Notes under the pieces: generated by a model
The model's input: only the letters and a program-made list of their open reading frames with translations
Told to the model about the DNA's origin: nothing
Database searches by the model: none
Origin: Leucobacter sp. OLIS6
Lineage (GTDB): Bacteria; Actinomycetota; Actinomycetes; Actinomycetales; Microbacteriaceae
Assembly (NCBI RefSeq): GCF_002752355.1
Contig: NZ_MRAV01000011.1
Coordinates: forward strand, 62,001-126,000
Direction of reading: 5' to 3'
DNA length: 64,000 bases
Translations under genes and position numbers: made by a program
Part shown: positions 8,318 to 24,676 of the stretch, piece after piece
How positions within the stretch are numbered: position 1 is the stretch's first letter
Layout: every line of letters starts with the position of its first letter

Positions 8318-9421
8318 CTACCCGAATCCGGGATCGTCGATCTCGGCGAGGATCCGCTTCAGGTCCTGAATCGTCGCGAAGTCGATGATGATCTGGCCCT
8401 TCTTAGCCCCCAGCTTCACCGAGACGCGAGTGTCGAGACGGTCGCCCAGACGATCCGCGATCTCCTCCAACTGCCCCTGACGCCCGCCCGCCCGCGGCTT
8501 CGGCGTCTTGCGCTTCGGCTCCTCCGAGGCGACGGCCTCGGCGGCGCGCACCGAGAGCCCTTCGTTCACGATCTTGTCGGCGAGACGGAGCATCGCGTCC
8601 GCGTCCCCGTCGAGCGAGAGGATCGCGCGAGCGTGCCCCGCGGTCAGCACACCGGCCGCGACCCGGGCCTGCACCGGCTCGGGCAGCTTGAGCAGGCGGA
8701 TCGTGTTGGAGATCTGGGGGCGGGAGCGGCCGATGCGCTCGGCGAGCTGCTCCTGCGTGATGCCGAAGTCCGCGAGCAGCTGCTGGTAGGCCGACGCTTC
8801 TTCGAGCGGGTTGAGCTGGGCCCGGTGCAGGTTCTCGAGCAGTGCGTCGCGCAGCATATGCTCGTCGGCGGTGGTGCGCACGATCGCGGGGATACTGTCG
8901 AGCCCCGCGCGCTTCGAGGCGCGGAGGCGACGCTCGCCCATGATGAGCTCGTACTTCGGCCCCTCGACGGGAGCGGGCTCGATCGCGCGCACGACGATCG
9001 GCTGGAACACGCCGAACTCGCGCACGCTGTGCGTGAGCTCCTCGAGCGCCTGCTCGTCGAACTCGGTGCGCGGCTGCACGTGGTTGGGGACGATGTCCTC
9101 CACCGCGAGGCGCGTGAGCGTCGCGCCGGGCACCGCCTGCAGCTCGGGCTCCGGCTCGGCCGGGGTGCTCGCCGTCTTCGCCTTGGCGCGCGTGCGCGGC
9201 TTGGCCGCCGTCGCGTCCACGGAATCGGACTCCGCGGACGGAGCGTCGGAACCGGAATCGGCGCCGTCCCAGGCCTCGTCGAGCTCGGTGTCGTTCGCCG
9301 GAGCCTCGGTCACGGTGCGAGCGGGGAAGAACACGTCGACGGGACGATCGCCCTCGGTCGTCGACTGGGGGATCAGGGCTCCGATCCCGCGTCCGAGACC
9401 GCTGCGCTTCTTCGTAGCCAT
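8318..9421 (-). CDS. parB: chromosome-partitioning protein ParB
   Basis: 367 aa CTP-dependent DNA clamp that loads at parS and organises the origin region. The N-terminus reads K-K-R-S-G-L-G-R-G-I-G-A-L-I. A Ser/Ala/Glu-rich linker follows (about 30–95), then the ParB/Srx domain with G-E-R-R-L-R-A-S, a helix-turn-helix (Q-E-Q-L-A-E-R-I-G-R-S-R-P-Q-I-S-N), and a C-terminal dimerisation segment. Its ATG overlaps the last base of the parA stop codon (TGATG). Five perfect cognate parS sites lie in the window. Confidence 0.97.
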   Translation of the reverse strand: MATKKRSGLGRGIGALIPQSTTEGDRPVDVFFPARTVTEAPANDTELDEAWDGADSGSDAPSAESDSVDATAAKPRTRAKAKTASTPAEPEPELQAVPGATLTRLAVEDIVPNHVQPRTEFDEQALEELTHSVREFGVFQPIVVRAIEPAPVEGPKYELIMGERRLRASKRAGLDSIPAIVRTTADEHMLRDALLENLHRAQLNPLEEASAYQQLLADFGITQEQLAERIGRSRPQISNTIRLLKLPEPVQARVAAGVLTAGHARAILSLDGDADAMLRLADKIVNEGLSVRAAEAVASEEPKRKTPKPRAGGRQGQLEEIADRLGDRLDTRVSVKLGAKKGQIIIDFATIQDLKRILAEIDDPGFG

Positions 9422-10326
9422 CAGGCTCCTTCGTTGCTGGTGTTGACTGCGGGGGCCCCGCGCTCGGCCATCTCGGCCGCGGCCTCGAGGTAGGCGAGCG
9501 CTCCGATGGAGGCCGGGTCGTAGGCGAGCACGGTCTGACCGTAGCTGGGCGCCTCCGAGATGCGCACCGAGCGCGGCACCGCGACGCCGAGGGTCTGGGT
9601 GGGGAAGTGCTCGCGCACCTCCGCTGCGACCTCGTGCGCCAGGTTGGTGCGGGCATCGAACATCGTGAGCAGGATCGTCGAGACGTTCAGGGTCGGGTTG
9701 AGGTGCTTCTGGATCAGCTGGATATTGCCGAGCAGCTGGCTCAAGCCCTCCAGCGCGTAGTACTCGCACTGGATCGGGATCAGCACCTCCTGCGCCGCGA
9801 CGAACGCGTTGACCGTGAGGAGGCCGAGCGATGGCGGGCAGTCGATGAACACGTAGTGGAATTCGCGCTCGGATCGCTCGAGGAACGAGACGACGGCGCT
9901 GCGGAGCCGCTGCTCGCGGGCGACGAGCGAGACGAGTTCGATCTCCGCGCCGGCGAGGTTGATGGTCGACGGCACGCAGAACAGGTTCTCGTTGTCGGTG
10001 GTCGGCTGGATCGCCTCTTCGATCTCGCTGTCTCCGAGCAGCACCTCGTAGACGCTGGTGATCTCGGACTGGTGCGGAACCCCGAGCGCGGTGGACGCGT
10101 TGCCCTGGGGATCGAGGTCGATGACCAGCACATTGGCCCCGCGGCGCGCGAGCGCCGAGGCGAGGTTGACGGTCGTGGTGGTCTTGCCCACCCCGCCCTT
10201 CTGATTGGAGACGGTGATGATGCGCGGCTCAGTGGGCAACGGAGACTTGGTCCTCTCGAGTTTGCGTCGACGCCTGATCTTGTCCACCAGGTGGTCGCCC
10301 ACCGGGGTGTTGTTCGTTGCAGTCAT
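9421..10326 (-). CDS. parA: chromosome-partitioning ATPase ParA (Soj)
   Basis: 301 aa. Deviant Walker A motif K-G-G-V-G-K-T-T-T follows I-I-T-V-S-N-Q, with F-I-D-C-P-P-S-L-G as Walker B. It is a DNA-binding ATPase whose gradient segregates ParB–parS complexes. The start MTATNN was chosen because ACGAGGA lies five bases upstream; another in-frame ATG at 10344 has no such site. A basic stretch (R-R-R-R-K) precedes the ATPase domain. It lies 46 bases after rsmG and overlaps parB. Confidence 0.96.
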   Translation of the reverse strand: MTATNNTPVGDHLVDKIRRRRKLERTKSPLPTEPRIITVSNQKGGVGKTTTTVNLASALARRGANVLVIDLDPQGNASTALGVPHQSEITSVYEVLLGDSEIEEAIQPTTDNENLFCVPSTINLAGAEIELVSLVAREQRLRSAVVSFLERSEREFHYVFIDCPPSLGLLTVNAFVAAQEVLIPIQCEYYALEGLSQLLGNIQLIQKHLNPTLNVSTILLTMFDARTNLAHEVAAEVREHFPTQTLGVAVPRSVRISEAPSYGQTVLAYDPASIGALAYLEAAAEMAERGAPAVNTSNEGA

Positions 10327-10372
10327 GGCATCCTCGTGCGTCATCGAATCGTCGGCGGAGGAGCCGGCCCGC

Positions 10373-11080
10373 TCACTCCGCCCGCGAGCCACGTTCTACT
10401 GTAGCCCGGAAGACCCGAGTCGTTTCGGCGAGCAAACCCTCGCCGAGCTCCTCGACCGAGACGCCGGTCACGCGGTGCTTGCGCAGAACCTTCTCGGCGG
10501 CCCGGATCTCGGCCTCGACGGAGGCGCCCTTGAGGAACAGCATCTCGCCGCCGTCGCGCAGCAGGGGAGCGGTGATCGGGACGAGGGTGCGCAGCGCGGT
10601 GACCGCGCGAGCGGTGACCTGATCGACTTCGAAGGCGTCGTGGTATTCCTCCGCGCGGCCGCGCCGGACCTCGACGTTCTCGAGCCCGAGCCGTTCGATC
10701 TGCTCGGTCAGCCACGCGCAGCGGCGCTCCATGGGCTCGATCAGCAGGAACCGCGCGTCGGGCCGGACGATCGCGAGCACCAGCCCGGGCATCCCGCCGC
10801 CGGTGCCGATGTCGGCCACCCGGGCACCGGAGGCGATGAGCGGCGCCAGGATCGCGCTGTTGAGCACGTGCCGGGTCCAGAGCCGCGGGGGCTCAAGGGG
10901 CCCGATGAGCCCGAGGGGTTCGCCGCGCTCCGCGAGATCCGCGGTGAAGGCGCGCAGCACCTCGATCCGGTCGCCCGCGATCTGCGCCGTCGATGCCGGT
11001 TCCGGCTCCACCGGAACGGCCGGCCCGGCATCGACGGGCTCGGAGGCGTCGACCGCTTCGATCGGGGTGCCGCGTTTCAC
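10373..11080 (-). CDS. rsmG: 16S rRNA (guanine-N7)-methyltransferase RsmG
   Basis: 235 aa (gidB family), which methylates the 530-loop guanine of 16S rRNA. The SAM-binding motif D-I-G-T-G-G-G-M-P-G-L is present, with N-terminal P-P-R-L-W-T-R-H-V-L-N-S matching the family. No ATG exists before the conserved core. The best start is the GTG lying inside a parS site (11074–11087), preceded by AAGGGG; residues 1–25 are then a Pro/Ala/Glu-rich extension. This makes parS part of the translation start. Neighbours are jag upstream and parA downstream. Confidence 0.93.
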   Translation of the reverse strand: MKRGTPIEAVDASEPVDAGPAVPVEPEPASTAQIAGDRIEVLRAFTADLAERGEPLGLIGPLEPPRLWTRHVLNSAILAPLIASGARVADIGTGGGMPGLVLAIVRPDARFLLIEPMERRCAWLTEQIERLGLENVEVRRGRAEEYHDAFEVDQVTARAVTALRTLVPITAPLLRDGGEMLFLKGASVEAEIRAAEKVLRKHRVTGVSVEELGEGLLAETTRVFRATVERGSRAE

Positions 11081-11087
11081 GTGAAAC
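11074..11087. promoter_or_regulatory. parS site 1, at the rsmG start
   Basis: Perfect 16-mer core gtttcacgtgaaac, the ParB loading sequence known from many bacteria. It lies between jag and rsmG and contains the GTG start codon of rsmG. Confidence 0.95.
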
Positions 11088-17027: not shown

Positions 17028-18254
17028 ATGCGGGTCGCGCATCTGTCTCTCGCCGATTTTCGCAATTACGCGACGGCGGAGGTGCCGTTCGCGGCAGGAC
17101 CCAACCTGCTGGTCGGACGCAACGGGCAGGGCAAGACCAACCTCGCCGAAGCGATCGCCTATTTCGCTACCTTGAAGTCCCATCGGGTCACCGGCGATAC
17201 GGCACTCATCCGCGCGGGTCAGGAGTCCGCGATTCTTCGCATGCGGGTGGAGTCGGGCGGCCGAGATGTGCTGCTCGAAGCACAGATCAATCGGGATCGT
17301 CCGAATCGGGCGCAGGTGAATCGCAATGCGGTTCGTCCTCGTGAGCTGACCCGGTGGTTCTCCACCGTCTTGTTCGCCCCGGAAGACCTCGGAATCGTTC
17401 GTGGAGATCCATCAGGACGGCGCCGCTTTCTCGATGAGGCCGTCGTAGCTCGATCACCGGCGCTCTCAGGAACGCTGTCTGACTATGAACGCGTCGTCAG
17501 GCAGCGTACTTCGCTGCTCAAGTCCGCTCGCAAGGGTGCGCGAAGCGCCGTCGAAGCAACGCTGGACGTTTGGGATGCGCAGCTGGTCGAGCACGGGTCG
17601 AGGATCATGCTGGCGCGGCACGAGTTGCTCCGAGCACTCGAGGAGCCGCTTCGGGCTGGATACGAAACGCTGGTCGACCAGGATCACCGGCCGCGATTGT
17701 CTCTGGCGGAGAGCGTCGCAGCGGCATGTGAGCGTGAGGGTGTTTCACGTGAAACGGGACTCGCCGAGGTGCCGGCCTCGGGCGAGGGGAGCGTTTCACG
17801 TGAAACCGCGACCATTGAACCCCTCTCCGGCGTTTCACGTGAAACGATTGCGGCCGAATTCCGGGGGGCGCTGCAAGCGGTGCGGGCACAGGAGCTCGAC
17901 CGCGGCGTTACGCTGGTCGGTCCGCACCGGGACGATCTCGTGCTGGAGTTGAACGGCCTTCCGGTAAAGGGCTATGCGAGCCACGGAGAATCCTGGTCAT
18001 TCGCGCTCGCGCTTCGCTTAGGGATGGCGGTGCTCCTGCGCGGTGAGTCTGCGGGCGGCGATCCTGTCATTCTGTTGGACGATGTGTTCGCAGAGCTCGA
18101 CACGCGGCGGCGGTCGAAGTTGATGTCGGCGGTCCAGAGCTTCGAGCAGGTGATTGTGACAGCCGCGGTCGAGGAGGACATCCCCGAGGGAATCGCTTGG
18201 CATCGCATTGGCGTCGAGCGCGGCACGGTCTCGCTCCGGAGCGCTGAGCAATGA
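17028..18254 (+). CDS. recF: DNA replication and repair protein RecF, with three in-frame parS sites
   Basis: 408 aa SMC-like ATPase that helps load RecA at gaps. Walker A is G-R-N-G-Q-G-K-T-N, the signature region F-A-L-A-L-R-L-G and Walker B P-V-I-L-L-D-D-V-F-A-E-L-D. Between S-L-A-E-S-V-A-A-A (about 230) and F-R-G-A-L-Q-A-V (about 278) lies a low-conservation segment where V-S-R-E-T occurs three times (residues 239, 256, 269). Each copy is encoded by a perfect parS. The segment is probably a surface loop. The stop codon overlaps the dciA start (ATGA). Confidence 0.96.
   Translation: MRVAHLSLADFRNYATAEVPFAAGPNLLVGRNGQGKTNLAEAIAYFATLKSHRVTGDTALIRAGQESAILRMRVESGGRDVLLEAQINRDRPNRAQVNRNAVRPRELTRWFSTVLFAPEDLGIVRGDPSGRRRFLDEAVVARSPALSGTLSDYERVVRQRTSLLKSARKGARSAVEATLDVWDAQLVEHGSRIMLARHELLRALEEPLRAGYETLVDQDHRPRLSLAESVAAACEREGVSRETGLAEVPASGEGSVSRETATIEPLSGVSRETIAAEFRGALQAVRAQELDRGVTLVGPHRDDLVLELNGLPVKGYASHGESWSFALALRLGMAVLLRGESAGGDPVILLDDVFAELDTRRRSKLMSAVQSFEQVIVTAAVEEDIPEGIAWHRIGVERGTVSLRSAEQ
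17742..17755. promoter_or_regulatory. parS site 2, inside recF
   Basis: Perfect gtttcacgtgaaac, read in recF frame as V-S-R-E-T. Confidence 0.95.
17793..17806. promoter_or_regulatory. parS site 3, inside recF
   Basis: Perfect gtttcacgtgaaac, 51 bp after site 2, in the same reading frame. Confidence 0.95.
17832..17845. promoter_or_regulatory. parS site 4, inside recF
   Basis: Perfect gtttcacgtgaaac, 39 bp after site 3, in the same reading frame. Confidence 0.95.
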
Positions 18255-18851: not shown

Positions 18852-18881
18852 TTGGCCTCGTTTCACGTGAAACGAGGCCAA
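18852..18881. promoter_or_regulatory. parS site 5 inside a 30-bp perfect palindrome
   Basis: parS gtttcacgtgaaac (18860–18873) is extended on each side by TTGGCCTC/GAGGCCAA into a perfect 30-bp palindrome. It lies 110 bp after dciA. As RNA it would fold into a strong stem that could also end the dnaA–dciA transcripts. Confidence 0.9.

Positions 18882-20018: not shown

Positions 20019-24676
<4,658 letters not shown>

Follow-up and report, generated by a model that had tools for sequence, protein, structure and literature searches.

In ParABS systems, the ParB protein nucleates at parS, forms a closed CTP clamp that slides over the DNA, and serves both ParA and SMC. In a stretch of 64,000 nucleotides from Leucobacter sp. 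OLIS6, hereafter the window, three perfect copies of the parS 14-mer GTTTCACGTGAAAC lie within recF and each is read as V-S-R-E-T. This raises the question of which is under selection, the DNA word or the peptide that it spells, and why centromere sites should stand inside a housekeeping gene. The original prediction was that a RecF loop has been shaped to host a cluster of ParB loading sites, with the protein sequence as a by-product.

The recF sites and partition genes of OLIS6

The features of the window are collected in Table 1. The recF product matches NCBIfam TIGR00611 with 275.8 bits (cut-off 172) and Pfam SMC_N with 70 bits (cut-off 40). The predicted positions of the three sites and the gaps between successive sites (51 and 39 bp) were verified; all three are in codon phase 0 of the recF ORF, where the translations through them are VSRETG, VSRETA and VSRETI. 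Two accompanying observations also held, namely that one frame of the palindrome contains TGA (it reads F-T-stop-N) and that the host segment is poorly conserved and flanked by conserved blocks, as is seen when RecF proteins are compared. The dnaA-dnaN gap, which is taken here as oriC, is approximately 2.2 kb away. The sites themselves are near-consensus palindromes: the 14-bp core of the parS consensus TGTTTCACGTGAAACA (PMC7383237) is perfect at all three, whilst none of them fully matches the outermost base pair of the 16-bp consensus (T..G, C..C and C..G).

Table 1. Positions of parS sites and associated genes in the OLIS6 window.
Feature	Position	Strand	Remarks
parB	8318..9421	-	367 aa; GERRLRA motif; parB_part 190.7 bits (cut-off 58)
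parA	9421..10392	-	Pfam families and place beside parB
parS, perfect	11074..11087	.	gap between jag stop codon and rsmG, possibly 5′ end of rsmG
recF	17028..18254	+	408 aa, intact; P-loop GRNGQGKTN, Walker B ILLDDVFAELD
RecF variable loop	17736..17837	+	residues 237-270, modelled as disordered, between helices 229-236 and 271-284
parS site 1	17742..17755	.	perfect; V-S-R-E-T is RecF residues 239-243
parS site 2	17793..17806	.	perfect; V-S-R-E-T is RecF residues 256-260
parS site 3	17832..17845	.	perfect; V-S-R-E-T is RecF residues 269-273, start of helix 271-284
parS, perfect	18860..18873	.	gap between dciA (ends 18742) and gyrB (starts 20055)
gyrB	20055..22073	+	host of the third-frame site; TIGR01059 938 bits (cut-off 882)
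parS variant GTTTCACGTGGAAC in gyrB	20509..20522	+	third frame, G-F-T-W-N; TGG replaces canonical TGA

The window encodes both partition proteins. The parA product scored 110 bits against NCBIfam ParA_partition, below the cut-off of 180. ParB has R and G at the positions of Caulobacter R173 and G201, which are described as absolutely conserved in ParB (PMC7383237), with T at 179 and K at 184, and the protein is predicted to have parS specificity. Noc binding sites were considered and rejected: the Noc word TATTTCCCGGGAAATA differs from the recF sites, Noc needs Q and R where this ParB has R and G, and the protein scored 212.8 bits against the Noc model, under its cut-off of 315.

Throughout the genome (3.33 Mb in 22 contigs) there are five perfect 14-mers, three of them in recF, against 0.0017 expected for a genome of this size with the base composition of the window. 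All five fall within 7.8 kb at dnaA-gyrB. With up to three mismatches to the 16-mer, the window holds six matches against 0.05 expected, a number reached by none of 100 shuffles. Genome-wide, 13 places match parS with at most two mismatches, compared with two for a reversed control pattern. Six places have one mismatch, one of them in the window (in gyrB) and five outside it; as a counterpoint to the origin clustering, such one-mismatch words also lie far from dnaA. One variant word, GTTCCACGTGAAAC at G000:C15:24905-24918 (in L135), is approximately 55 kb from dnaA. The same one-base variant is tolerated in recF, and this place is possibly a further parS.

The sequence CACGTG is a frequent core of DNA-binding sites, and the palindrome might belong to another regulator that binds CACGTG. 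We found no support for such a regulator. The identity of the 14-bp core with that of the parS consensus and the clustering of perfect sites by dnaA, near parAB, argue against it. Moreover, Pseudomonas aeruginosa ParB binds both GTTTCAC and GTTCCAC (PMC10419367), the two half-sites that are combined in the variant tolerated most often. Of the explanations weighed here we hold this one to be the least credible, and would be most surprised if it were correct.

Codons and peptide in the RecF loop

RecFs were collapsed to 212 unique sequences before the site-by-gene, tree, peptide and gyrB counts; several genomes had been sampled twice. Three look-alikes with four mismatches (L045, L175 and L184) were dropped, which took the sites from 116 to 113 and the RecFs from 59 to 57. 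Among the 113 sites of these 57 clade RecFs, 106 are perfect and seven have one mismatch. All seven variants are nonsynonymous (VPRET three times, VSRGT three times and VSRDT once), and six of them are one half-site change, GTTCCACGTGAAAC or its reverse complement. Synonymous changes number 0 of 113. RecFs that keep V-S-R-E-T with codons that break parS, which would have spoken for selection at the protein level, were absent: each of the 108 V-S-R-E peptides in the 212 RecFs is a perfect parS.

The codons themselves point the same way. Only six of the 117 columns conserved in clade RecFs use a single codon, and all six are in VSRET. Given codon usage, the probability of the parS codons for V-S-R-E is 0.0012. 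Immediately beyond the 14-mer, at the wobble position of the Thr codon, 96 of 106 cases have A or G against 0.53 by usage, an excess that fits the 16-bp palindromic consensus. The 57 clade RecFs represent one origin and not 57 independent tests; the comparison that matters is with the silent sites elsewhere in the same gene, which changed freely. Taken at the level of sequence, these comparisons show conservation of the DNA word and not of the peptide, with selection acting on the DNA.

The opposite reading would give V-S-R-E-T a function in the RecF protein, such as capping a helix or making a contact, with the parS spelling secondary. In its favour, the last site is followed directly by L, I or V in 54/54 RecFs with two or more sites, and in the structural model that site starts helix 271-284. 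Both points hint at a protein-level constraint that may act on the last site on top of the DNA constraint. However, a protein motif does not account for the absence of synonymous changes whilst seven amino-acid changes are tolerated, nor for the codons in those columns of clade RecFs where V, S, R, E or T is conserved, which number 4, 4, 6, 2 and 4 in the median. The first site lies in a low-confidence loop and is followed by any of 13 different residues among clade RecFs, and V-S-R-E does not occur apart from parS in the 212 RecFs. V-S-R-E-T as a protein motif was rejected on the codon and peptide evidence, and we judge that reading highly improbable. A protein-first origin from L-S-R-E-K, found in one Agreia RecF, was likewise rejected, as the DNA there is unlike parS.

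An AlphaFold2 model of RecF, built from a 33-row alignment (mean pLDDT 91.4), places sites 1 and 2 inside a low-confidence loop whilst site 3 opens helix 271-284. Over residues 241-270, pLDDT in blocks of ten is 43, 48 and 62, and residues 239-254 are under 50. In the clade (n=57) as in other RecFs (n=155), the median start of the conserved GPHRD block is residue 281, which gives no support to a loop built or lengthened for parS, although single clade members have long inserts between the sites. Rather, equal positions of this block indicate that an existing loose loop was overwritten. Therefore the original prediction stands in one part, the peptide following the DNA word, and has to be amended in the other, the loop having been occupied and not made. 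From the alignment and the model, this loop probably accepts parS because it is loose and poorly conserved.

Neighbouring sites are 39 to 267 bp apart from start to start, in steps of three, and 39 bp is found in 27 of 56 pairs. This range rules out a fixed helical phasing between sites. The widest spacing, 267 bp, is in the recF of L128 (residues about 245-328), where a long low-complexity insert keeps the frame.

Distribution of the recF pair and the third-frame site in gyrB

The genus sample comprised 54 genomes, of which 52 yielded recF; the remaining two (G035 and G038) gave neither recF nor parS. The sample is assigned to Leucobacter on recF sequence, that of four named Leucobacter records (L034 to L037) being identical to recF from genomes in the sample. 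Allowing one mismatch, 49 of the 52 carry two sites in the loop. Three sites were found only in OLIS6 and G016, and a single one only in G024, which shows that one site is tolerated. Every loop site in the genus genomes with recF uses the V-S-R-E-T frame. Across the genus, 98 of 155 perfect sites are in the recF loop, which holds half or more of a genome's perfect sites in 50 of 52 cases. Genus g47 (one genome) and genus g51 (two genomes) also have the pair, and two g6 genomes have one site each.

Overall, 57 of 212 unique RecFs have the V-S-R-E-T trait. In all 57 the ORF runs through the sites, and with the RecF of OLIS6 above the TIGR00611 cut-off these parS count as intragenic. On a RecF tree made without the loop (FastTree) the trait requires one change, and the 55 members outside g6 form one group with a support of 95. 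The tree thereby establishes the in-frame pair, as far as RecF relationships can be read from sequence, as an inherited trait common to Leucobacter and its nearest genera. The family sample comprised recF DNA from part of 299 genomes and included some genera without a sampled recF. The other 155 family RecFs contain no V-S-R-E-T site: 147 are without a parS-like site, five have a site in the F-H-V-K frame (one of these, MFHEK, is weak) and three have one in the F-T-W-N frame near the C-terminus (one genome each of g4, g19 and g24). These sites occupy parts of recF different from the loop used by the clade. In total, sites in recF require six changes of state on the family tree.

Outside the family, 54 RecFs were compared (56 new loci, two of which proved to be family members), from part of the genomes searched. 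In one of them (L268, from another family of the same order) a perfect V-S-R-E-T site lies in a different region of RecF. Three RecFs of a single distant family carry C-terminal F-H-V-E sites, and the remaining 50 of these 54 have no parS inside recF.

Several single loci and genera are recorded here in their own right. In L031 (7001-8668, a Leucobacter edaphi record whose recF is the same as that of L017) RecF is 556 aa long and ends, ahead of dciA, in a putative low-complexity tail of about 160 residues; this tail remains open in the V-S-R-E-T frame and contains two further perfect parS, giving four in one ORF. The presumed start of recF in L225 coincides in part with a one-mismatch parS (GTTGCACGTGAAAC), and a GTG inside this word could be the start codon. 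No perfect 14-mer was found in G068, G148 and G209 (genus g16) or in G083, G156, G263, G305 and G342 (genus g31), all at least 99% complete; G302 and G213, of the same genera, have one or two. The ParB of the genomes without a perfect site may use a variant word. Genera g6 and g20 carry 7 to 20 perfect parS in 1.3 to 2.8 Mb (20 in G296 and 12 in G303), more than most family genomes listed.

The gyrB site follows from the third frame of the palindrome. The canonical word has TGA in this frame and cannot stand there inside a gene. The gyrB copy differs from it by an A11-to-G change, which turns TGA into TGG and gives GTTTCACGTGGAAC, a word that joins the same half-sites GTTTCAC and GTTCCAC. Across the 212 contexts, all 55 third-frame sites with at most one mismatch are GTTTCACGTGGAAC and are read F-T-W-N, and 52 of them are in gyrB. 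The exact word occupies one conserved gyrB place in 51 of 53 covered clade members and in 1 of 136 covered others. Four clade members were uncovered at this place, including the fetched stretch of OLIS6, whose site is visible in the window. The two g6 genomes have no gyrB site, and other genera have G-H-V-W-R-Q or similar at this place, at least four mismatches away. The spelling of parS thus appears to track the reading frame, canonical in the two frames that are open and A11 to G where there is a stop.

The one occurrence outside the clade is in L208, at the same gyrB place; its genome, G152, is 85% complete and no perfect parS was found in it. A separate gain, transfer or contamination are possible explanations.

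Taken together, these data make it very probable that the three recF sites are chromosomal parS within the recF coding sequence, and that it is the DNA word which is conserved, with both V-S-R-E-T in RecF and F-T-W-N in GyrB as by-products. ParB would bind the recF sites and then close as a CTP clamp. The clamp would slide along the dnaA-gyrB region and build a partition complex moved by ParA, and SMC would be loaded at this same region. As a whole, the interpretation first put forward is supported, with ParB loading at the sites as its presumptive step.

Coding sequence as a home for parS

Whether it matters that these sites lie inside a gene is a separate question. Two parS of P. aeruginosa, parS1 and parS2, are within recF (PMC5521831), and segregation needs no more than one of parS1-4, whichever that is (PMC4368675). 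As in Leucobacter, there are two recF sites that are near oriC and intragenic, and in P. aeruginosa these are of high affinity and bound by ParB in cells. The P. aeruginosa word, GTTCCACGTGGAAC, differs from that of Leucobacter and has no stop in any frame; moreover, parS1 and parS2 read F-H-V-E, as deduced from the silent mutations in Table 1 of PMC4368675, and not V-S-R-E-T. P. aeruginosa belongs to another phylum and its recF parS presumably have a separate origin. Nine of the ten P. aeruginosa sites are placed in coding sequence, parS3 included (PMC4368675), whereas PMC5521831 calls parS3 as well as parS4 intergenic. Corynebacterium glutamicum likewise has an actinobacterial ParABS system with an origin-near parS cluster, in which parS1 is in trpCF and the other nine sites are between genes (PMC7083940). 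Its ten sites form one 35-kb cluster 73 kb from oriC, compared with five perfect sites in 7.8 kb in OLIS6. In Caulobacter, the recF-gyrB region is an insertion hot spot for transposon-borne parS (PMC5815017). The same two genes therefore tolerate or favour parS there, although these are experimental insertions and the mechanism is stated in that paper as unknown.

The main rival to a role for the intragenic position accepts the sites as parS but holds that they came to lie in recF by chance, through drift in a loop near the origin, and that being inside a gene brings no advantage. A single origin accounts for all 57 clade members, the loop is loose in the model, and perfect intergenic parS coexist with those in recF. 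On the other hand, sites in recF recur, with six state changes on the family tree, the cases outside the family and P. aeruginosa (PMC5521831), and to these the Caulobacter hot spot at recF-gyrB (PMC5815017) can be added. Searches of dnaN (208 loci), dciA (210), dnaA (136) and gyrA (131) found no site, which weighs weakly against drift as the loci are related and dominated by kin. One site was found among 68 parA loci, again related, and 198 further sites fell in none of the eleven genes checked. We regard drift as a strong contender whose chances come close to even.

A third reading is that ParB at these sites regulates the dnaN, recF, dciA and gyrB genes, and that regulation is the selected function. 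In P. aeruginosa, genes around parS1-4 are expressed less when ParB is in excess, and for the dnaA-dnaN-recF-gyrB operon the authors put this down to parS1 and parS2 within recF (PMC5521831). However, at the native ParB level these two intragenic sites did not repress their neighbours, whereas the intergenic parS3 and parS4 repress (PMC5521831). We consider regulation an improbable function of the sites. Our guess is that intragenic sites, being away from promoters, load ParB without silencing them, which fits these native-level data.

The occurrence of parS in coding sequence is thus known. New, among the literature matches listed, are the clade-wide in-frame pair, the all-nonsynonymous pattern of change and the spelling that depends on frame; the matched parts of the P. 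aeruginosa and C. glutamicum accounts contain neither a clade-wide codon comparison nor frame-dependent spelling. The titles and abstract starts of these matches hold no account of recF parS sites in Microbacteriaceae or Leucobacter. A comparative survey was published by Livny et al. (2007).

In summary, Leucobacter and its nearest genera offer a clean natural example of a protein sequence that appears to be fixed, throughout a genus, by the DNA word of a centromere. If this is true, two housekeeping proteins, RecF and GyrB, carry residues dictated by the centromere. At the recF sites no silent change was seen and only amino-acid changes survive, the reverse of normal coding evolution, and the site variants suggest which bases of parS are needed by ParB in the cell. 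Tentatively, and with somewhat more doubt than confidence, we propose that selection favours coding sequence as the place of centromere sites, and that parS has come to recF-gyrB repeatedly, in at least two phyla, because ParB can be loaded inside a transcription unit, at a distance from promoters, with no gene silenced. The placement of parS at recF-gyrB in Actinomycetota and Pseudomonadota would thereby become accessible to experiment. Moreover, there is a warning here that conserved peptides in proteins encoded near the origin may be DNA signals.
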